DNA from: Planctomicrobium sp.
GTDB taxonomy: Bacteria > Planctomycetota > Planctomycetia > Planctomycetales > Planctomycetaceae
Assembly (NCBI GenBank): GCA_029259835.1
Contig: JAJDEL010000879.1
Location: 1 to 16,694, forward strand
Direction of reading: 5' to 3'
DNA: 16,694 nucleotides
A model generated the notes under the pieces. That model was not told the DNA's origin. It saw only the letters and a list, made by a program, of their open reading frames with translations, and made no database searches. Below are positions 2 through 16,543 of this stretch, in pieces (positions within the stretch are counted from its first letter, which is position 1; each line of letters opens with the position of its first letter). Made by a program: the position numbers and the translations under genes.

Positions 2-2611
2 AAGCATGTTTTTGCTCCGGCATATGGTCGTGTGGGGTCACGACTGCTGGCGCCCGTTGATGCGACGTTCCTGCCGGTGATGACTGATTCGGAATGGGAT
101 GTCCTTCTCTCCGGCTCCGAGCGAACATCGCTCTGGCATCCGCAACTTGGATTGATTGGGTTTGAGCCGGACGAGGTTCTCTCGGTCGCCGATTTAATTG
201 AGTTCACACCTCCCGGTCGCGCGAACTGGTCGTCCGCGCACGAAGGTGTTGGGTTCAATTCTCGGTTACTCAGCATTCAGGCGGTTTGGCCGGAAAATCC
301 TGGTGAAATGATCAAACAGGGAGGCGGAGAAATCGGCTCCAAAGGTGGCGAACTTAAAAAGCTCAAAGGAAAAGGACGCGATGGAAAGACGAGTGATCTC
401 GCTCAGAAAGCAGGAGGGCTGGCGGGTGCGGCAGTCGGCTTGGCTCTCACTCCATTTGCAATGGCGGCGAAGATGATGGCAGGCATGGTTCCAGGCACCG
501 CGAACCAGCCGACCTGGGTGAATAAAATTGAAGACTGGTCCAACGACATTCTTCGAAAAGGAGCGAATCTATTGAATTCGCGGATGCGTGAGATGGACCG
601 GCTGATGAAAATGCTCAATGAATCTCCGGACGAAGGCTTGAAGTATGCGATCCCAATGGGACAAGGCAACGCGACTCCGGGTTCTTCTCAAGGATCGAGA
701 CTCGTTGGTCGGAACGTCAACTTCAGCTTGAGGAACATCTTCGGCGGCGGACCAGCGGACTACTGGGACATGCCGTACGATGTGCAGGCGAACTTGCACG
801 CGCGGTATCGAGAACTCGCGGAGCGGGAAGTCCATCTTGGTCGACACCGCCGGGCGGCGTACATCTATGCCGAACTCCTCGGCGATTTGAACGGAGCCGC
901 CGCCGTTCTGGTTGCAGGCAAGCATTTTCGCGAAGCGGCGGTTCTGTACAAGGAGAAACTTTATCGACCACTCGAAGCGGCTCAATGTCTGGAGAAAGGT
1001 GGTCTGTTGCACGATGCGATGGAGATCTACTCTGAGCTAGGCAGTTTCGAAAAAGTCGGCGACTTGCAGACTTTGCTTGAAGATCAAGAAGCCGCTGACA
1101 ACGCATATTGCCGGGATGTTGAAAAACATCTCGCGACGAGAGACCACCTTCATGCCGCACGAATCCTCGACGAAAAACTCGACAATCCCGACGAAGCGAT
1201 CATTGTGCTGGAGACCGGCTGGAGCGGTACTTCGCATGTCAAAGATTGCTTGCAGAAAAGCTTTGAGATTCAAGCACGTCTGGGTCAACACGACGCTGTC
1301 AAAACCCTGATTCACCGCTTCTCCGAAGAGTCGTATCAGCGCGGTCGAGCAGTCGCCATCGTCAGCGCGCTCGGAACTGCGGCGACGAGTTATCCTGATT
1401 CATCGACACAAGCGCAAGCCGCAGACGCCTCGCGAATCATTGCTTCCAAAACAGCGCAAGCCGATCCGAAATCGGCTCGGCAGTTATTAGGGCTTGTTGA
1501 GAAACTCGCCCCGGAGGATCGTTTACTCAAGAGAGATACGTCACGTTTCCTGAAACAGCATCGCCCAGCACCGGTCAGCCGAACAATCCGCCAGCGCAGT
1601 GCAAACCTGATTGTCGCCAAGATCGAGTCGATGCAGAAACTCGATTGGCCCGACACCACTTGGCGGTCTTTCGCTCAATCGAATCAACACATTTACGCAG
1701 TCGGAGATATTCACAATGGTGAGCTTGCACTGGGACTGGGGAGTTATTCAGACGATGGACTTATCTACTTGAGTGCGAGTCTTTGGGGTAGAGAGATCTC
1801 ACCTCGTCACAATGTCTATGGGATTACGAGAGCTGAACAGTCTGCGCTCGGGCTGAGCCATCAAGATGATCGATCTTTCATTGCAATCGACGAGCAAGCA
1901 TCATCTGTTTCCCTCTGGAGTATGTGCTTCGAACTCGGTTTGATAGATGTCATCCCGCCGAATCGTATCGACGCAATCAATATCGGCACGCCAGCATTTC
2001 TAGCTGATGAAACGGTCAACATCGCCAGCAATGCTGAAATGCTCTGGGCGGTCGAATGGCCGACCTTGGCACTCAAAGGATTCAACCACGACGGTTTGCC
2101 GGTGATCAATCAGCAACTCGAACCACCACCTGGCTGGGAATTCGACTCCGCGGTTGGCATCCCAATGCTGGCGCAGTCGAATGCTGTTTATGTGGCCTTG
2201 GGGTCGACATTCCTGCAAATCACCAAAAGTGGTCGAGTACTCGAAACCGAATTCGAGCACGTGATTCAGCGTTTGGTTGGGAGTGTTTCTCATACGCTTT
2301 CACGGATCGCAGTCTTCTTCGAAGAAGGAGGCGCCGTTTGCTGGCCCCGATTGGTTCATGAACAGCACTTTGAGAAATTGCCCCAAGGGCTGTACCAACC
2401 AGACGGACTCTTTCTACGGAACGGAAATTTCATCACACATGCCAATGGAGACTGGCATCTTTACTCAACGGAATCTCGCAAGTTGAATTCTCTCGGCTTC
2501 ATCAGCGGCATTGCTCACAAACCAACAGCAATCCTTCGGCACCCTAATGCGAACAAAATCGTGGTCTGCACCGAAGGTGGCGAGGTCGCGGTCTATTCAC
2601 TTTCGAAATGA
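2..2611 (+). CDS. bpX6 protein of a MoxR-vWA-beta-propeller ternary system (5' end outside window)
   Basis: The reading frame is open to the left edge. The first possible start inside the window is a GTG at 32, but the frame reads through it from base 2 and no ribosome binding site precedes it, so the true start is probably upstream. Numbering from the GTG: residues 1-75 resemble the end of the bpX6 domain; about 95-165 are Gly/Lys-rich then hydrophobic; around 203 there is a YAIPMG signature typical of bpX6 proteins. About 255-440 are TPR-like helical repeats (AAYIYAELLGD, EAAVLYKEK, DAMEIYSELG). About 530-859 are strand-rich and should form the C-terminal beta-propeller. Family knowledge: bpX proteins are encoded with a MoxR AAA+ ATPase and a vWA protein in NTP-dependent systems proposed to act in biological conflict or protein remodelling. 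Neither partner is in the window; they would be expected upstream. Family call fairly sure; cellular role unknown. Confidence 0.8.
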   Translation, partial: KHVFAPAYGRVGSRLLAPVDATFLPVMTDSEWDVLLSGSERTSLWHPQLGLIGFEPDEVLSVADLIEFTPPGRANWSSAHEGVGFNSRLLSIQAVWPENPGEMIKQGGGEIGSKGGELKKLKGKGRDGKTSDLAQKAGGLAGAAVGLALTPFAMAAKMMAGMVPGTANQPTWVNKIEDWSNDILRKGANLLNSRMREMDRLMKMLNESPDEGLKYAIPMGQGNATPGSSQGSRLVGRNVNFSLRNIFGGGPADYWDMPYDVQANLHARYRELAEREVHLGRHRRAAYIYAELLGDLNGAAAVLVAGKHFREAAVLYKEKLYRPLEAAQCLEKGGLLHDAMEIYSELGSFEKVGDLQTLLEDQEAADNAYCRDVEKHLATRDHLHAARILDEKLDNPDEAIIVLETGWSGTSHVKDCLQKSFEIQARLGQHDAVKTLIHRFSEESYQRGRAVAIVSALGTAATSYPDSSTQAQAADASRIIASKTAQADPKSARQLLGLVEKLAPEDRLLKRDTSRFLKQHRPAPVSRTIRQRSANLIVAKIESMQKLDWPDTTWRSFAQSNQHIYAVGDIHNGELALGLGSYSDDGLIYLSASLWGREISPRHNVYGITRAEQSALGLSHQDDRSFIAIDEQASSVSLWSMCFELGLIDVIPPNRIDAINIGTPAFLADETVNIASNAEMLWAVEWPTLALKGFNHDGLPVINQQLEPPPGWEFDSAVGIPMLAQSNAVYVALGSTFLQITKSGRVLETEFEHVIQRLVGSVSHTLSRIAVFFEEGGAVCWPRLVHEQHFEKLPQGLYQPDGLFLRNGNFITHANGDWHLYSTESRKLNSLGFISGIAHKPTAILRHPNANKIVVCTEGGEVAVYSLSK

Positions 2612-3342: not shown

Positions 3343-6300
3343 TCAGGTAATGTTGTACTTCTTGAGTTTACTGAAGAAGGTGCTACGAGGAATCCCTAAG
3401 AGTCGCGCCGCTTCGGCTTTGTTTCCGTGGCAGGTTTCCAGAGCATTTCGCAAAGCCTCTTCCTCCTGGTCTTTGGCAAGGACTGTCTTCCTGGCGACGG
3501 CAAGATGCGCGGGAGCCGATGCGGAACGAGTTTCTGATGAAGATGCTTTCGATGGCGAAGTGAACACCGGAACGGATTTAGGGTCTGTCAATTCGACTGG
3601 CAAATTTGAACTGTAGACGGTGTTCCCTTCCGCCAGGACAACTGCGCGTTCGATGGCGTTTTGCAATTCACGGATGTTTCCAGGCCAATGATGTTTTTTG
3701 AGGATTGCCAAAGCGTCATCGTCAATCCGCAAGACCTGCTTGCCGGATTTCTCTGACGCGACGCGGAGGAAATGAACGGCCAGTTCGTAGAGATCCTCTT
3801 GCCGTTCCCGTAGTGGGGGGAGCGTCATGGATATCACATTGAGGCGGTAGAACAAATCTTCTCGGAATTTCCCTTCTGAAATGAGCTGTTCCAGGTTCCG
3901 ATGGGTCGCCGCGACGATGCGAACATCCACTTTCATGGACTTTGTACTCCCGACCGGTTCGAACGTTCGTTCCTGAAGGACACGTAAAAGTTTCACCTGA
4001 ATATCGAGCGAGATATCTCCGATTTCATCGAGAAACAGAGTCCCTCCGTTGGCACGCTGGAATCGACCGATTTTGTCTTCCCTCGCATCGGTAAAAGCTC
4101 CCTTAACGTGGCCGAAGAGTTCGCTTTCCAGAAGAGTTGGCGACAACGCAGCACAATGGACCGAGACAAGCGGCTTTTTCCGTCGAGGACTATTGTCGTG
4201 AACAGCTTTTGCGAGAAGCTCTTTCCCGGTTCCACTTTCACCACGAATCAACACAGACGAATTACTGGAGGCCACTTTACGGACTGTTTCAAGGAGTTCC
4301 TGGATGACCTCACTCCGGCCCAGAATCCCTGACCGGTCAAAGGGTTCTTTTTCACCTTGAGGCTCAGGAGTTTTAGAGAGGGCTGCAAGCTCTTGCTGAA
4401 AGGCTCCGAGTTGTCTTTCCTGATCATTGATCTTTTCAATTTTTAATTGCAAATCCTGATTGAGCCGCGAAACATCTTGCTGCACGTTGGCACAATGCAA
4501 AGCGACTGCGGTGATTCGAGCCATTGCAATCACATAAGCAACATCTTCTGCAGAAAAGCTAGCATGATTGGGCTTTGCACCGAGGACGAGAATTCCTCCA
4601 AGTTGATCCTGAATCTCTAACCCGTGAATCACTTCCGCATTCAGTTGCCTGATGAGTTTCTGCGATGGACTCCCCCGTTCTGAGACGCGCTGTAAAATTC
4701 GGTGTTGCGTCAAGTCCGCATCCGCGTCTGCTTCAACATGAATCTGTAACGGAAAATCGCCTTGCCCAGAGGCCATGACCATACGAAACTCAGGGAGATC
4801 CTTTCTACGAAGATAAAGCGCTGCTTCATCAACATGGAGAACTTCCCGACAGGAGTCGAGCAGGCTGGCGGAGACGGCTTCAGGTTCCAGCACGTCAGAG
4901 ACAACGCGGTTCATGCGAGTCAGTGCTTTATCAAGTTGGTATTTTTCGCTAAAGAAATTACGGTCGAGAACTCGTTGGATGTTGTCGCGGAACCAACTGA
5001 GAACCAAAATCGAAGTCATCAACACCAACGCAAGCGGAACTGTTTGTTGGAAAATCGCTAAATCTTGATGCAAGGCGTTCACCGCTCCGACAGCAATCAA
5101 GGCACTGAAAACGAGAGCCAAAGCAATGCTGCTCCCGTAATACCAAACACCACGGCTGACAACCTGATCGATTAACATCAGCTTGTACCGTGCAATCCCG
5201 ATTCCGTATGCCAGCATGAATGCCAGGCTGGCAATAAACATAGGAAGCCGGGCAGCACCTAACGCAAAGCTGACGTGATCAAATACTGCCAGATAAAAAG
5301 TGTACCCAATGGGCATGATTGCAAAGAGAGCCGCCCAGAGAATCCATTTCACCTGACTCCGCTCCAGAGGATTCCTCGCTCTGGTGTAACTGCGAAGTAG
5401 ACGATGGATGCAGAGGACGAAGTATGCAATCGAAAAGCAGAGGACGGCGAAAATCGTATTGTGAAGGAGCGGCATTATCCCCGCTGTGGTGAGGCTGGAC
5501 ATCCTTTCGAGAGTTTCAGAAAAAGGTCCGAATCCTCGATCAACAGTCAATCCCCAAGTCAGCAAAATGCAAGCAGCCAGTGTAACGGCACCCAAGACTG
5601 GAATCGCATAAATCGCAATGATCGTCATCCCGCGCGAGCGAGAATACGTCTCTGACGGAAATGGGTACACCATCAAAAAATGCATCAAAACCGCCGGAAG
5701 CAAAGCGCCTGAGACAGCAAAGATTGTAATCAAGGACGGACTCGCAGCGATGACCCACCAATGACTACCACCTACAAAGGCCATCAAGGTGACTGCGGAC
5801 AAGGCGAAAAATGTTCGTACCGGTTGGTCGAATGGACGGTTCCAGTAAGCGACACCTCCAATGACAACGATAAAGAATTGCAGGATGTACCAGACCAGAG
5901 TGATCGAGACGCCAAATGCTGGTTGAGGTATCAGCGGGACAAAACTGACGAGGGCTTCAGTCTCACCAGGTCGAATAAAATACAGACGGACGTAACGAGA
6001 ATGGTCAGGGTACTCAACAGCTGACAGGTTCCCTAAATTTCGATCCTCTGTCGGATCAACCCTAAATTCCAGGATCCCTTCTGAGCCAATTTCAAGATTA
6101 CGGAACTCACGATGTGCTCGCACCCAATCAGTAAAGGAATAAATCGGTCGACCAGCAAGTTCGATAATCCGGTCCCCAATATCTGGAGTGTTTCCTTTGA
6201 TATCAACTTTTGCCAGTGCAGAGATGTCTTGCACTTCGAGACCCCGAACAGCAGAACCGGATTGCGAGTCACTTTCGATCAGGCAGCCGATTGGAACAAC

Positions 6301-6399
6301 AGGCTGAGTTGGCACAAACCACAAAACGACCAATCCATAAAACGCTGAGGTCAGCGCCAGCGCCGAAATGAGCCAGATTTTTTGGATTTTGAAGTTCAC
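3343..6399 (-). CDS. Membrane-embedded sigma-54-dependent transcriptional activator (PDZ - 10 TM - GAF - AAA+ - Fis)
   Basis: This 1018-residue bacterial enhancer-binding protein hydrolyses ATP to remodel sigma-54 RNA polymerase. In order: membrane helix 8-29; PDZ-like domain about 45-145 (GDRIIELAGRPIYS); nine more helices, about 163-185, 195-214, 222-246, 259-284, 308-331, 350-373, 384-404, 420-441 and 452-470; GAF about 500-635; coiled coil about 640-675; AAA+ about 690-930; Fis-type helix-turn-helix about 980-1016. Ten helices with the N-terminus inside put the PDZ domain outside and the ATPase inside, which is consistent. Seen in the AAA+ domain: Walker A GESGTGKE (720-727), Walker B with D791/E792, sensor I AATHRN, arginine fingers R846/R852, and sensor II WPGNIRELQ. 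The sigma-54 contact loop reads GAFTDA (767-772) instead of GAFTGA. No response-regulator receiver domain is present, so it probably senses directly. The start is GTG at 6399 with AAGAGA upstream. It is divergent from a sigma-54-driven RNA at about 6598, its likely target. Confidence 0.9.
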   Translation of the reverse strand: MNFKIQKIWLISALALTSAFYGLVVLWFVPTQPVVPIGCLIESDSQSGSAVRGLEVQDISALAKVDIKGNTPDIGDRIIELAGRPIYSFTDWVRAHREFRNLEIGSEGILEFRVDPTEDRNLGNLSAVEYPDHSRYVRLYFIRPGETEALVSFVPLIPQPAFGVSITLVWYILQFFIVVIGGVAYWNRPFDQPVRTFFALSAVTLMAFVGGSHWWVIAASPSLITIFAVSGALLPAVLMHFLMVYPFPSETYSRSRGMTIIAIYAIPVLGAVTLAACILLTWGLTVDRGFGPFSETLERMSSLTTAGIMPLLHNTIFAVLCFSIAYFVLCIHRLLRSYTRARNPLERSQVKWILWAALFAIMPIGYTFYLAVFDHVSFALGAARLPMFIASLAFMLAYGIGIARYKLMLIDQVVSRGVWYYGSSIALALVFSALIAVGAVNALHQDLAIFQQTVPLALVLMTSILVLSWFRDNIQRVLDRNFFSEKYQLDKALTRMNRVVSDVLEPEAVSASLLDSCREVLHVDEAALYLRRKDLPEFRMVMASGQGDFPLQIHVEADADADLTQHRILQRVSERGSPSQKLIRQLNAEVIHGLEIQDQLGGILVLGAKPNHASFSAEDVAYVIAMARITAVALHCANVQQDVSRLNQDLQLKIEKINDQERQLGAFQQELAALSKTPEPQGEKEPFDRSGILGRSEVIQELLETVRKVASSNSSVLIRGESGTGKELLAKAVHDNSPRRKKPLVSVHCAALSPTLLESELFGHVKGAFTDAREDKIGRFQRANGGTLFLDEIGDISLDIQVKLLRVLQERTFEPVGSTKSMKVDVRIVAATHRNLEQLISEGKFREDLFYRLNVISMTLPPLRERQEDLYELAVHFLRVASEKSGKQVLRIDDDALAILKKHHWPGNIRELQNAIERAVVLAEGNTVYSSNLPVELTDPKSVPVFTSPSKASSSETRSASAPAHLAVARKTVLAKDQEEEALRNALETCHGNKAEAARLLGIPRSTFFSKLKKYNIT

Positions 6400-6431: not shown

Positions 6432-6443
6432 TTCGGCGCCGAA
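6432..6443. promoter_or_regulatory. Perfect 12-bp palindrome, candidate activator-binding site
   Basis: TTCGGCGCCGAA is self-complementary over 12 bp. It lies about 33 bp upstream of the activator start codon (6399) and about 155-165 bp upstream of the predicted start of the sigma-54-driven RNA on the other strand, a usual distance for an enhancer site. The GCGCC core recurs at 6419-6423, 6448-6452 and 6558-6562. A second weaker inverted repeat, CAACAA (6488-6493) with TTGTTG (6511-6516), is centred about 96 bp upstream of that start. Binding by the neighbouring Fis-type domain is inference. Confidence 0.4.
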
Positions 6444-6570
6444 GTCAGCGCCGACCAAGATTATCCTAACACATTATTTTGTAAAAGCAACAATTCTGAT
6501 ATGAGGCAAGTTGTTGGTACTCCTAGGGCTAGAGCGAAAACCTCAATTAACCGCTCGGCGCCTTACACTT

Positions 6571-6588
6571 TTGGCACACTCATTGCAT
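6571..6588 (+). promoter_or_regulatory. Sigma-54 (-24/-12) promoter
   Basis: TTGGCACACTCATTGCAT matches the sigma-54 consensus TTGGCAC-N5-TTGCA at every conserved position. GG at 6573-6574 and GC at 6585-6586 have the obligatory spacing, predicting a start near 6598 on the + strand. It lies outside any convincing gene, about 170 bp from a divergent sigma-54 activator gene, and immediately before a foldable RNA with a terminator. I found no other full match between genes in the window. Confidence 0.8.
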
Positions 6589-6597
6589 ATCAAAGAA

Positions 6598-6731
6598 TCG
6601 ACCCCAACCATGCCCTTGGATTTATTCAGGCGAGTTGTTGTACGTTTTGTTTGCAGCCAAACCCACTCTGCTAACAGCCTCTCTTCTCCACGAGCGGCGT
6701 GCAACCACCCACCTGGTCCAAGGGCTTTTTT
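6598..6731 (+). ncRNA. Sigma-54-driven structured small RNA, candidate new family
   Basis: Start predicted from the -24/-12 promoter; end set by six T at 6726-6731. The RNA folds as one long arm. A perfect 9-bp closing stem GCCCTTGGA/TCCAAGGGC pairs 6612-6620 with 6717-6725. A UUUAU bulge follows on the 5' side, then UCAGG/CCUGG (6626-6630 with 6712-6716), then an interrupted helix, then GTTGTACG/CGTGCAAC (6637-6644 with 6698-6705, one G-U pair). The apical part holds a small hairpin GTTTG-CAGC-CAAAC (6649-6662) and a pyrimidine-rich single-stranded tract at 6678-6689. The closing stem plus T-run can serve as the intrinsic terminator. I could not match it to 6S, SRP, tmRNA or RNase P RNA. Open frames across it are not protein-like. 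Length is about 134 nt. Its role is unknown; trans-acting regulation of mRNAs is inferred. Confidence 0.65.
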
Positions 6732-6779
6732 ATGCGCTTTACAACTGGCAAGGATTGCTAACAGCTCTAAGAAATTTTC

Positions 6780-6798
6780 CGTACGCCTCAAGCGTACG
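6780..6798 (-). terminator. Hairpin downstream of the DUF1080 gene, possible terminator
   Basis: CGTACGC (6780-6786) and GCGTACG (6792-6798) form a perfect 7-bp stem around a 5-nt loop, 44 bp after the end of the DUF1080 gene on the - strand. What follows on that strand is GGAAAATTTC, only a weak T-run. It also separates this gene from the convergent small RNA. Confidence 0.35.
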
Positions 6799-6842
6799 AG
6801 GGACGCTGCACCACACACGACTTTCCGAGAGCAGCTACACGA

Positions 6843-7640
6843 TTACAGTCGCTTTGCGAGCCGTTTTCGTTGCAGTAGAGACTGAAATCTCTTTTCTCTA
6901 CGCTGTGAAGATTTGGTAGTCGAGGGCTTTTCGCTTGGTAATTCGCGAATCCAGATGTTCCTGAAATGAATCTCAGACCCCTCACTTTGGAGGGAGATCG
7001 AGCCTTCAAGTGGATTGCAGTCAGCGACAGTTCCAACAGACTGACCATTGACTGTGACTGTGACTTTCCCGTCATTGCTCACAATAACGCAGTGATTCCA
7101 CTGATTCACTGGTCGAGACAACATCGGCACATTTCGAATTTCGTTGCTCGACTTTGCACCGGGAATAGGAAAAACACTTCCTGCAAATGGCTGCTGCAAC
7201 TGAACTTGCACCGATGTGGGCCAGATTCGATTGTCCCCATTTGTATAGATCAGAACTCCACTGTTTCCATTTTCGTCACTTGGAAATCGCCATTCAAGTC
7301 CAAACTCGAAGTTACGAAATTTCTTCCTACTGCGCAGATAACCGTTGGGCTTCCCGGTACACGCAATAAAAGCGACGCCAGTCTCGCTATCCTCTGTATA
7401 CTTCCAGGTTTCCTCGAACTTGGTGTCTTTCTTTCCTGAGAAAAAACTCCAGGTCTCTCCTGGAAAATCCTTCGTTAACAGCATCGTTTTCGGAGGAATG
7501 TCATTGGGGGCACCATTTGCCTCTGGAACTGTTTCCTGACAAAACCCGGGAGTGCTAAATACCGCTAAGAATGTCACCACTGCGAAAGTGGAGAACACAA
7601 GCTGGCGATTAAAAGAACTATGAATCATCTGAAGGCGCAT
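6843..7640 (-). CDS. Secreted DUF1080 (3-keto-disaccharide hydrolase-like) protein
   Basis: A 265-residue protein of the DUF1080/PF06439 family, which is greatly expanded in Planctomycetes and has a concanavalin-like jelly-roll fold; some members act on 3-keto-glycosides. Residues 1-35 are a signal peptide with a hydrophobic core (VFSTFAVVTFLAVF). The domain spans about 60-232, with typical segments at W76-K77, FEFGLEWRFP, GNSGVLIY and WNHCVIVSNDGKVTVTVNG, and ends in IHFRNIWIREL. The tail after 233 is Ser/Lys/Arg-rich and low-complexity. An in-frame ATG four codons downstream is an alternative start; neither has a clear ribosome binding site. It lies 111 bp after the DUF255 gene on the same strand and could be its last operon member. 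The exact substrate cannot be told from sequence. Confidence 0.85.
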   Translation of the reverse strand: MRLQMIHSSFNRQLVFSTFAVVTFLAVFSTPGFCQETVPEANGAPNDIPPKTMLLTKDFPGETWSFFSGKKDTKFEETWKYTEDSETGVAFIACTGKPNGYLRSRKKFRNFEFGLEWRFPSDENGNSGVLIYTNGDNRIWPTSVQVQLQQPFAGSVFPIPGAKSSNEIRNVPMLSRPVNQWNHCVIVSNDGKVTVTVNGQSVGTVADCNPLEGSISLQSEGSEIHFRNIWIRELPSEKPSTTKSSQRREKRFQSLLQRKRLAKRL

Positions 7641-14635: not shown

Positions 14636-16543
14636 TCATGGGTGAAAGTGAGAATCAGTTTTTGCGTGGTATTGGTGACACTGCGTGCAACTGTTGAGCT
14701 TTTGAGAAGAGTTGTGGCACTTCGCGCATGTCATCTTGGTGATGGAAGAAAAGCCGCTGGGGAAGTCAGTTTCCCAATCTTCATGACTGCCAAAGAGTGT
14801 CTGAAGATCGAATTGATAAGTAGAGATGTTTCTGGCATTCTCACTCAAAGAATGACAACTTGAGCAATTTTTTTTCTCTGAAGTTAGAAGATGTGGGGCA
14901 TGCGAGAACCTGGTGAGGGAATTCGATTGTTGTTTTGGAACTTTTGACGACCAGTTGATTTTCCATTGGCTGGAAACGCTGTCGCGTTCGATTTGGTGGC
15001 ATGCAAAACAACGTCCGGAAGCAACCGGGCCTTTTGTATTTTCGGAACCAGACGCTGTCGGGTTTGCAAGGACTTCCAGCATTTCCAGAACCGGATTTGA
15101 TTCGATGTTCCCTTTTCGGTTTTCCCAGTTTTCAACAGACGCTTCCAACCATTGCCGCACAACGGGATCGGCATGTCCGATCGGACGATAGCGAATTGTG
15201 TGATCCTTGTTGCGTACGTACCAACCTCCCCCGACTTCAGATTCTGGCGGAAAGAGCTTGAGGCTTTGCTTAGTTTTAGCGATCTCAGGCAGCGGATTTC
15301 CTGATTCTCGTTGAATGAACTCCTGCTTCAGATTCGGAAACCAAAGTTGTTGTGCGTGAACAAACGCAGGCACGATGGACGGCTCCAATTTCCCAAAGGC
15401 TTTCAACTCCGGTGGAAGGCGCTCTGCAATCGCAGATTGCCCCCGACGAGCAACATCGTAAAACAACTTCTTCACTTCCCAGAAGGATTCGTTGTCGTCG
15501 GTCTCACCAGATTGCAGCAACAACTTCATAAAGCCCGGCATGTTTCTGACTGCAGTGTCCAGAGATTGAGCGGGCCATTCGCCGATCTCGCTTGAGGGAG
15601 CGGACGGTAATGAAATAAACGGAATCCCTGGGAAATCTCGATCTTTGATTCCTCGTTCATGACATGCTGAACACATTTGTTCGAACCCGCGTGTCAACAT
15701 GACTCGTCCATCCTGACTTTGCTGATGACAGGCTGAACAATCGCTCGGAGGCAAGGCATCTGGCATGAGTCGCGTGGCATCGTCAACGAAATAGCGGCTT
15801 AAGTGACTTGCATGGTCGAAGTGAATTCGAGTTTGTCGGTGATGCGGATAATCTCCCAAATCTGGATGCCCGGATTCGAAACTGTGAAACTGATCTGCGT
15901 GGCAACTTTGACATTTGTTATTCGCAAATTCTTGCAAGTTGTTTTGAATGCCATGATGTTCCCGATGACACTCGCTACATGCGTGCTCTTGCTGCGAATG
16001 TCCCGCCGCGAGTTTTGCAGTCACGGTTTGGAAAAGTGTTGGGTTCAAATCGGATGGTGAAGAGTTTTTCTCAGTGAATGAAGCTATTAATTCCGGAGAA
16101 ATCCCGTGTGTTTGCAGCGGATTTTCACCCAATTCCGTATGACATTTCAAGCAGAGAGAAGAGTCTTCGAGAGATGTCCCAGATGTGAAGACGAACCCAG
16201 TCCAGTCGTGTGATGCTGCGCTGTGGCATGCTGAACATCCAATTTCGGCGGATGCATGATGCGAGGAAATTTCACCAGGGGAAATCGCGTTCGTGGAGCG
16301 ACCGCTCCATAACAACAGACAGGCCGCCAGCGAGAGAGCCGCCACGCTCATTGTGGCGATGCGTCTGCGTTGCAATAAACTTCTTTTCGGTTGGCATTGA
16401 TTCGAAGAGTTCTGGCAACGCCCGCGACTCGTCGGTCCAAATTCGCACGGTGTTCCATCACACAACTGACCGCACACCCATTTGTCTGACGGACGCTCGT
16501 AAGAACTTTTTTTCCATCCAAATTTTTGCAGAGGATCAGTCAT
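14636..16543 (-). CDS. Ten-haem cytochrome c with cytoplasmic Cys-rich head
   Basis: A 635-residue membrane-anchored multihaem electron carrier. Residues 1-58 are cytoplasmic and hold five cysteines (24, 28, 33, 43, 50) in a pattern CGxxCxGxPCxxGP..GRC that looks like a metal or Fe-S site. About 64-80 are a membrane helix. The outer part carries ten CxxCH haem sites starting at residues 103, 131, 189, 211, 269, 291, 512, 560, 606 and 619, arranged as six plus four around a haem-free stretch (about 300-505). HFDHASHL (241-248) and FSHAPHL (546-552) are typical distal-ligand motifs of cytochrome c7/c3-type modules. The probable role is moving electrons across the periplasmic side, perhaps from the membrane or from the cytoplasmic head (inference). 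The ATG at 16543 is the only start in frame before an upstream stop, and it lacks a clear ribosome binding site. The divergent neighbour starts 30 bp away. Confidence 0.88.
   Translation of the reverse strand: MTDPLQKFGWKKSSYERPSDKWVCGQLCDGTPCEFGPTSRGRCQNSSNQCQPKRSLLQRRRIATMSVAALSLAACLLLWSGRSTNAISPGEISSHHASAEIGCSACHSAASHDWTGFVFTSGTSLEDSSLCLKCHTELGENPLQTHGISPELIASFTEKNSSPSDLNPTLFQTVTAKLAAGHSQQEHACSECHREHHGIQNNLQEFANNKCQSCHADQFHSFESGHPDLGDYPHHRQTRIHFDHASHLSRYFVDDATRLMPDALPPSDCSACHQQSQDGRVMLTRGFEQMCSACHERGIKDRDFPGIPFISLPSAPSSEIGEWPAQSLDTAVRNMPGFMKLLLQSGETDDNESFWEVKKLFYDVARRGQSAIAERLPPELKAFGKLEPSIVPAFVHAQQLWFPNLKQEFIQRESGNPLPEIAKTKQSLKLFPPESEVGGGWYVRNKDHTIRYRPIGHADPVVRQWLEASVENWENRKGNIESNPVLEMLEVLANPTASGSENTKGPVASGRCFACHQIERDSVSSQWKINWSSKVPKQQSNSLTRFSHAPHLLTSEKKNCSSCHSLSENARNISTYQFDLQTLFGSHEDWETDFPSGFSSITKMTCAKCHNSSQKLNSCTQCHQYHAKTDSHFHP

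Follow-up and report, generated by a model that had tools for sequence, protein, structure and literature searches.

Small RNAs (sRNAs) driven by sigma-54 promoters are a known kind of regulator, and the locus described here raises the question of whether a non-coding gap in a planctomycete genome holds such an RNA and, if so, what controls it and how it acts. The gap lies in a 16,694-nucleotide stretch of DNA from Planctomicrobium sp. (hereafter, the window), which belongs to a 6.0-Mb draft genome of 954 contigs. It is flanked on one side by a sigma-54 activator gene (3343-6399, minus strand) and on the other by a gene whose product is of the 3-keto-disaccharide hydrolase type (6843-7640, minus strand). 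A terminator-like hairpin on the minus strand at 6779-6799 fits the latter gene, although shuffles average 0.7 such sites. Farther out, the window encodes an apparent multihaem cytochrome (14636-16543, minus strand), in which cytochrome c7, MtrC-like and paired CXXCH domains were recognized, and a protein (2-2608, plus strand) that carries bpX3, a domain known from MoxR-vWA-beta-propeller ternary systems.

A first-pass annotation had placed in the gap a sigma-54 promoter driving a structured small RNA. Our analysis supported that interpretation and added what it lacked, namely, a palindromic site repeated in tandem (6432-6454), a pair of apical hairpins whose loops are conserved, and a conserved 5' tail. 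We conclude that the gap encodes a real, family-wide RNA with its own membrane activator, which is apparently new, and that the structure, the promoter and the linkage of the RNA to the activator are strongly supported.

A sigma-54 promoter and a structured RNA

The full-consensus −24/−12 element proposed by the first-pass annotation is an exact match: TGGCACACTCATTGCA, of the form TGGCAC-N5-TTGCA, occupies 6572-6587 on the plus strand, with its GG at 6573-6574, its GC at 6585-6586 and 10 nt of spacing. Although this is the sole match in the window at no more than one mismatch, 93 of 200 shuffled windows also contain such a match (mean, 0.64), so that a single match is no proof and the case has to come from conservation across regions. 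We assembled 136 regions upstream of the activator gene, 36 of them selected because the RNA had already been found there and 100 further ones; activator genomes G011, G071, G080, G081, G086, G116 and G169 are absent from this set, mostly because of a partial match or a contig end. An element scoring at least 9 of 12 was present on the RNA strand in 127 of the 136 regions, compared to 19 on the opposite strand, and at a score of at least 10 the counts were 92 and 1. The element is thus conserved upstream of homologous RNAs, as the first-pass annotation held that it should be. Beyond it, at a distance of 8 to 140 nt, a CCCARC or ACCCA motif followed in 124 of the 127 regions. An automatic test for promoter, long hairpin and T-run together was passed by 123 of the 136 regions; several of the 13 that failed are truncated at a contig end. 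In G017 the RNA is present without a recognizable −24/−12 element, in G023 and G024 neither is clear, and one of the 123 RNAs (L153, in G033) has a promoter match that scores just 7.

The predicted RNA spans 6598-6731 on the plus strand, with a predicted start at about 6597-6600. This 134-nt segment, claimed at about that length from the outset, folds at −47.8 kcal/mol, compared to −29.7 ± 3.4 kcal/mol for shuffled versions (z, −5.3; none of 200 shuffles equal). The opposite strand folds less well (z, −3.1) and has no T-run at its end, in keeping with the proposal that promoter, structure and terminator agree on the same strand. Matches to covariance models and covariation, described below, point to the same segment, and we infer that it is transcribed from the −24/−12 element.

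From 5' to 3', the RNA consists of an unpaired tail, an outer stem, a broken arm, a junction of two hairpins, and six T. The tail, conserved in the alignments, reads ACCCCAACC at 6601-6609, and its commoner form in the family is ACCCAGCC. The 5' side of the outer stem (6612-6621) has its partner at 6716-6725; the perfect 9-bp closing stem of the first-pass annotation was recovered as 6612-6620 paired with 6717-6725, with one G-U pair in addition. Its 3' side serves as the terminator stem too, running into the six T at 6726-6731, and homologs are likewise T-rich at their ends. Across the homologs this stem (helix 1) has two-sided changes in all eight of its pairs, with 96.5% of cells paired. 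Apical hairpin A (6648-6676; helices 2 and 3) has a GCAG/CUGC stem and the loop CCAAACCCACU at 6657-6667, and its stem and most of its loop are unchanged across the first 6 sequences. Hairpin B (6677-6698; helix 4), with the loop UUCUCCAC at 6684-6691, is confined to part of the family, helix 4 being gapped in 38 to 41 of 57 alignment rows.

A search by blastn in 59 genomes, including the window's own, found the RNA in 6. The first-pass annotation had suggested a covariance-model search in related planctomycetes, and a model built from these 6 sequences placed the RNA in 14 of the 150 genomes of the family, among them all six of the genus. A second model (R2), built from 14 sequences, gave matches in 54 of the 397 class genomes searched, all but one in the same family, and in 11 of 294 phylum genomes, again all but one in the same family. 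We considered spread beyond the family on the strength of matches in G421 (E, 0.006; 397 genomes) and G625 (E, 0.0018; 294 genomes), but both are at chance level, and such spread is doubtful. Absence in these genome-wide searches is weak evidence, because just the best 8 to 22 candidates per genome were scored. When model R2 was applied to the 100 further activator-upstream regions, it found the RNA in 81 (E, 8e-11 to 0.11); 82 of the 100 regions had no earlier match, and R2 detected the RNA in 63 of those 82, in a small search space at E of at most 0.11. The RNA family is probably limited to one planctomycete family, which we take to be the Planctomycetaceae from the names on 80 activator loci: Planctomicrobium, Thalassoglobus, Schlesneria, Fuerstiella, Planctomyces and Planctomycetaceae, with a few misfits (Kuenenia and Rhodopirellula). 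Cultured strains that carry the RNA include Thalassoglobus neptunius KOR42 (G001) and Thalassoglobus polymorphus (G005). At one locus (L098, in G036) the RNA occurs twice in tandem, at 282-413 and 417-567, with a strong −24/−12 element before the first copy only.

Compensatory change in the stems, on which the first-pass annotation had staked its claim, was found in every modeled pair. Over 57 homologs, drawn from chosen loci at E of at most 0.0005 with weaker and redundant loci excluded, two-sided changes occur in 18 of 18 pairs and 95.6% of cells pair, in an alignment (A4) that, like the earlier A2, was fitted to the model. Two-sided cells numbered 187, whereas shuffles gave 47 and none of 500 reached the observed figure, and sliding the partner columns by one to three positions lowered pairing to 28 to 60%. 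The first 14 sequences had two-sided changes in 9 of the 18 pairs, and a structure-free MAFFT alignment of 6 sequences had them in 5 of the 18 pairs predicted, its covariation term being just −0.16. Among the 84 nonredundant RNAs (the 123 RNAs minus near-duplicates), 70 have a fold z below −3; values extend from −9.3 to +2.2 around a median of −4.9. The RNA had been said to belong to no recognized family, and this stood up to a scan with Rfam 15, which gave two matches in the window below the gathering threshold (E, 0.35 and 0.69), neither at the RNA, and none at E of 0.1 or less in 9 homolog loci.

The divergent activator and its putative binding sites

The neighboring gene encodes a protein of 1,018 amino acids with the Pfam domains Sigma54_activat, AAA_lid_14, HTH_8 and GAF_3, confirming the divergent, membrane-bound sigma-54 activator of the first-pass annotation. 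Its GAF_3, AAA+ and Fis-type DNA-binding domains lie at 3355-4884. The protein has the features of a bacterial enhancer-binding protein, namely, an AAA+ sigma-54 domain, a Walker A motif, a GAFTGA-type loop and a Fis-type helix-turn-helix. Walker A reads GESGTGKE in 49 of 50 activator records, in which the window's own protein is counted twice. The sigma-54 contact loop, within the AAA+ domain at 3826-4326, is a variant, since GAFTDA replaces GAFTGA in 46 of the 50 records; 3 have GAFTGA.

The sensor had been described as a PDZ domain with ten helices, and the N terminus does model as a PDZ domain plus ten long helices, although the model is weak over much of residues 401 to 500 (pLDDT, 44 to 63). 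A separate model of the PDZ domain places it at residues ~30 to 162 (5914-6312, minus strand), between helix 1 and helix 2; nine further membrane helices, at residues ~161 to 472 (4984-5919, minus strand), were assigned from AlphaFold helices and hydropathy, from which we also infer the topology. The PDZ assignment is clearer from the separately modeled domain than from Pfam, which among 18 activator members gave just weak PDZ_6 matches (3 of 18 at E of at most 1; best, 0.009). In a Foldseek search with the whole N-terminal model, the GAF domain dominated the matches.

The activator is 90% identical to a protein of a metagenome genome labeled Planctomicrobium, its sensor region is 72% identical to a Thalassoglobus polymorphus protein, and Planctomicrobium piriforme encodes it as well. 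The sensor part is present in 143 of 150 family genomes with a single match each, except for G071, which has two partial matches. Activator matches beyond the family came from 4 of 246 genomes of the phylum, and all are distant and cover just part of the membrane or GAF region.

RNA and activator are arranged divergently, 188 to 682 nt apart (median, 272), in 50 of the 54 genome-wide RNA matches; of the other four, three are in genomes outside the activator search and one has RNA and activator on different contigs. All 81 RNAs found in the 100 further regions are likewise divergent from the activator, as read off from the strands. Judged from the 15 largest clusters and their first members, no other neighbor of at least 120 amino acids turns up at more than 10 of the 80 activator loci; the larger frame clusters sampled were the activator gene's opposite strand or shifted frames, and many flanks end at contig ends.

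Between the two genes lies a tandem palindromic site of GCGCCGA repeats, TTCGGCGCCGAA...AGCGCCGA, at 6432-6454, a putative upstream activator sequence (UAS), and a promoter-proximal CGGCGCC half-site is found just 5' of the −24 element (6556-6562); several homologs have GCGCC sites similarly placed. In 122 of 123 regions, the 350 nt that precede the promoter hold at least two GCGCCGA/TCGGCGC sites; of 109 control windows taken downstream of the RNA, one does. In the window's genome, the tandem pattern (GCGCCGA-N3-12-GCGCCGA) occurs once, at 6432-6454. It is present at the RNA-activator locus in 15 of 20 genomes searched, and in 5 of the 20 (G000, G001, G004, G128 and G162) this is the single match genome-wide. 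It is missing from the locus in the remaining 5, namely, G006, G059, G068, G074 and G005, the last of which lacks the pattern altogether; it also occurs elsewhere in 14 of the 20, with up to 18 matches in G032, and a reversed control is equally frequent in some GC-rich genomes. Judged from this sequence pattern, the GCGCCGA repeats are likely the activator's binding site. Given that the tandem site stands ~30 to 55 bp before the activator gene, the activator could also regulate itself.

Exposed motifs and the probable output of the pathway

The reading that we consider likely is that a sigma-54-dependent, trans-acting sRNA is the main, and perhaps the only, output of the divergent PDZ/ten-helix/GAF/AAA+/Fis activator. 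The computational analysis establishes the RNA family, its structure, the conservation of its promoter and UAS-like sites, and the linkage. As for mechanism, a signal at the periplasmic PDZ/membrane domain would license the AAA+ ring; the activator would bind the tandem GCGCCGA sites and open sigma-54 polymerase at the −24/−12 element; and an RNA of ~130 nt would be made, terminating at its own outer stem. This RNA may then act through unpaired, often repeated C-rich motifs: the tail ACCCAGCC, the apical loop ACCCAC/ACCCAGC, and UCCCC.

Other readings of the locus are considerably less probable. Transcription of the RNA might be driven by another sigma-54 activator, while the divergent protein would act chiefly on its own gene or on others; some sRNAs under enhancer-binding proteins use more than one activator, as described for Qrr1, with LuxO and SypG (PMC10162802). 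Binding of the site by the divergent activator is, moreover, putative, and the tandem pattern is missing at the locus in 5 of 20 genomes. We nevertheless consider this unlikely, as RNA and activator form one conserved pair, GCGCCGA repeats accompany 122 of 123 regions, and the tandem site is genome-unique at the locus in 5 of 20 genomes. That the segment is a leader or attenuator rather than a free RNA would suit its strong, terminator-like outer stem and its intergenic position, yet the next gene in the window (6843-7640) is convergent with it and no downstream neighbor recurs widely around 80 loci, making this reading very improbable. Least credible of all is a small-protein gene. The window does have a frame open from the ATG at 6610 across the RNA and past it, but the closest relative (G002; 92% identical) stops the same frame after 7 codons, and among the 5 genus relatives shown, 3 others have a first ATG frame that breaks off or begins at a different place. 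A frame of at least 25 amino acids preceded by a Shine-Dalgarno sequence occurs in only 13 of 84 RNAs, and sequence changes keep the RNA pairs.

The exposed motifs bear on how the RNA may act. Of the 84 nonredundant RNAs, 82 contain ACCCA, where shuffles lead one to expect 26, and 74 contain CCCAGC, where they lead one to expect 10. The median probability that ACCCA is unpaired is 0.89, compared to a mean of 0.46 over all C, and UCCCC is exposed too (median, 0.92). At least two ACCCA copies are present in 54 RNAs, one copy in 28 and none in 2, and among the RNAs shown the repeats often fall one in the 5' tail and one in the apical loop; in the window's genus the tail is ACCCCAACC and the loop AACCCACU. 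Such exposed C-rich seeds are compatible alike with pairing to G-rich mRNA and with titration of a protein.

Hfq is used by most pairing sRNAs of model bacteria. A search for Hfq (PF17209) was negative in all 19 family genomes and positive in 5 of 14 control genomes, E. coli included; this counts against the pairing reading and, for the genomes searched, sets the RNA outside the class of Hfq-dependent trans-encoded sRNAs. CsrA, by comparison, gave 6 to 13 matches per genome in all 19, and the combination makes for an unusual posttranscriptional toolkit.

We slightly favor mRNA pairing over titration of an RNA-binding protein. Under pairing, the mRNA partners would carry GGCUGGGU-like sites. 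A small target search in three genomes (G000, G002 and G005) revealed no excess over a reversed control and no target at a ribosome-binding site: matches to the 10-mer complement of the tail numbered 11, 7 and 13 (control, 16, 14 and 19), and those to the 11-mer complement of the loop numbered 2, 3 and 2 (control, 5, 6 and 4), counts that include the RNA gene itself. One orthologous gene, for an NtrC-type response regulator (L314, L321 and L331), has the exact 10-mer tail complement in all three genus genomes; we rejected it because the complement lies ~220 nt inside the frame, over DGWG codons, where coding conservation is the likelier cause.

The RNA could instead be a decoy, similar to CrcZ or CsrB, whose repeated unpaired ACCCAGC motifs would sequester an RNA-binding protein. 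Among direct 7-mer repeats, ACCCAGC is the most frequent; 19 of 84 RNAs contain an exact 9-mer repeat, compared to 4.6 in shuffles, and 58 contain a 7-mer repeat, compared to 39. An ACCCA-type motif is kept while the arm sequence drifts, and the 54 RNAs with two or more copies, as well as the missing Hfq in 19 of 19 genomes, speak the same way. Because 28 RNAs carry a single ACCCA and 2 carry none, and the protein that would bind the motif is still hypothetical, we regard the decoy as possible but rather doubtful. Somewhat more tentative again is the fuller picture of a one-protein, one-RNA pathway, in which a family-wide membrane receptor with ComP-like topology and a DegS-like PDZ domain would have as its sole transcriptional target an RNA that acts, without Hfq, as a decoy for an ACCCAGC-binding regulator. 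A sponge for CsrA, like CsrB or RsmZ, might be suspected from the 6 to 13 CsrA copies per genome in 19 of 19 genomes and from csrA genes ~1.7 to 2 kb beyond the RNA in G022 (G022:C1:5174989) and G074 (G074:C1:6713206). CsrA is an unlikely partner, however, since GGA is neither enriched (155 observed, 167 expected) nor exposed (mean unpaired probability, 0.24; 8 exposed GGA across 84 RNAs, rather than several in each), and of 80 named loci just 2 have a csrA in their flanks; we give this reading hardly any credence.

A conserved receptor-activator-RNA unit would give the poorly understood planctomycetes a pathway with an RNA output, and the locus makes sRNA action without Hfq directly testable through the loss of one gene or one 134-nt segment.

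Relation to known systems

The RNA has two of the features that define a sigma-54-dependent sRNA, namely, a conserved −24/−12 element directly upstream and a discrete, structured RNA with an intrinsic terminator; the third, transcription that depends on RpoN and an enhancer-binding protein, is predicted. Sigma-54-controlled sRNAs include CrcZ/CrcY with CbrB in Pseudomonas and GlmY/GlmZ with GlrR in enterobacteria, and Qrr, CrcZ, GlmY and CsrB have Rfam families. The RNA described here differs from CrcZ/CrcY and GlmY/GlmZ in having no Rfam match, and the activator scores 292.4 of 763 bits against the GlrR model, below its cut-off. CrcZ repeats a single-stranded motif, and its Hfq/Crc sites are A-rich, whereas the motif here is the C-rich ACCCAGC.

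LuxO, the activator of Qrr, is a response regulator located in the cytoplasm. At the present locus a single membrane protein is both sensor and activator, the family genomes searched gave no Hfq match and the RNA has no counterpart in Rfam; the NCBIfam LuxO model gives the activator 313.5 of 800 bits, far below cut-off. What the locus would share with Qrr/LuxO of the Vibrionaceae is an sRNA whose sigma-54 promoter answers to a bacterial enhancer-binding protein; Qrr1 of V. fischeri depends on sigma-54, LuxO and SypG (PMC10162802).

In searches that covered mostly papers outside subscription, we found no published account of this RNA or of a similar planctomycete sRNA pathway, and the terms small RNA, sRNA and non-coding are absent from the main text of a 2025 survey of sigma-54 regulons that covers Planctomycetia (PMC12316311). 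A 2010 comparative screen reported a candidate structured planctomycete RNA, the Rhodopirellula-1 motif (PMC2864571); by that description, the motif occurs also in Proteobacteria, is apparently listed as likely cis-regulatory and has no Rfam number, and it is by description only that we set it apart.

On the side of the receptor, DegS/sigma-E with MicA and RybB differs in that the activator here has no protease domain by Pfam and works with sigma-54, not sigma-E. There is a likeness to ComP of Bacillus, a ten-helix sensor kinase for which a predicted model places a PDZ domain in the first extracytoplasmic loop, with the other nine helices after it (PMC9620489). The models suggest the same topology for the activator, with its PDZ domain in what would be the first extracytoplasmic loop and ten helices in all, a sidedness that we read from the predicted layout; the likeness is one of predicted models. 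In place of the histidine kinase that is the output of ComP, with no kinase found here, the shared PDZ and ten-helix layout is joined to a GAF-AAA+-Fis sigma-54 activator.
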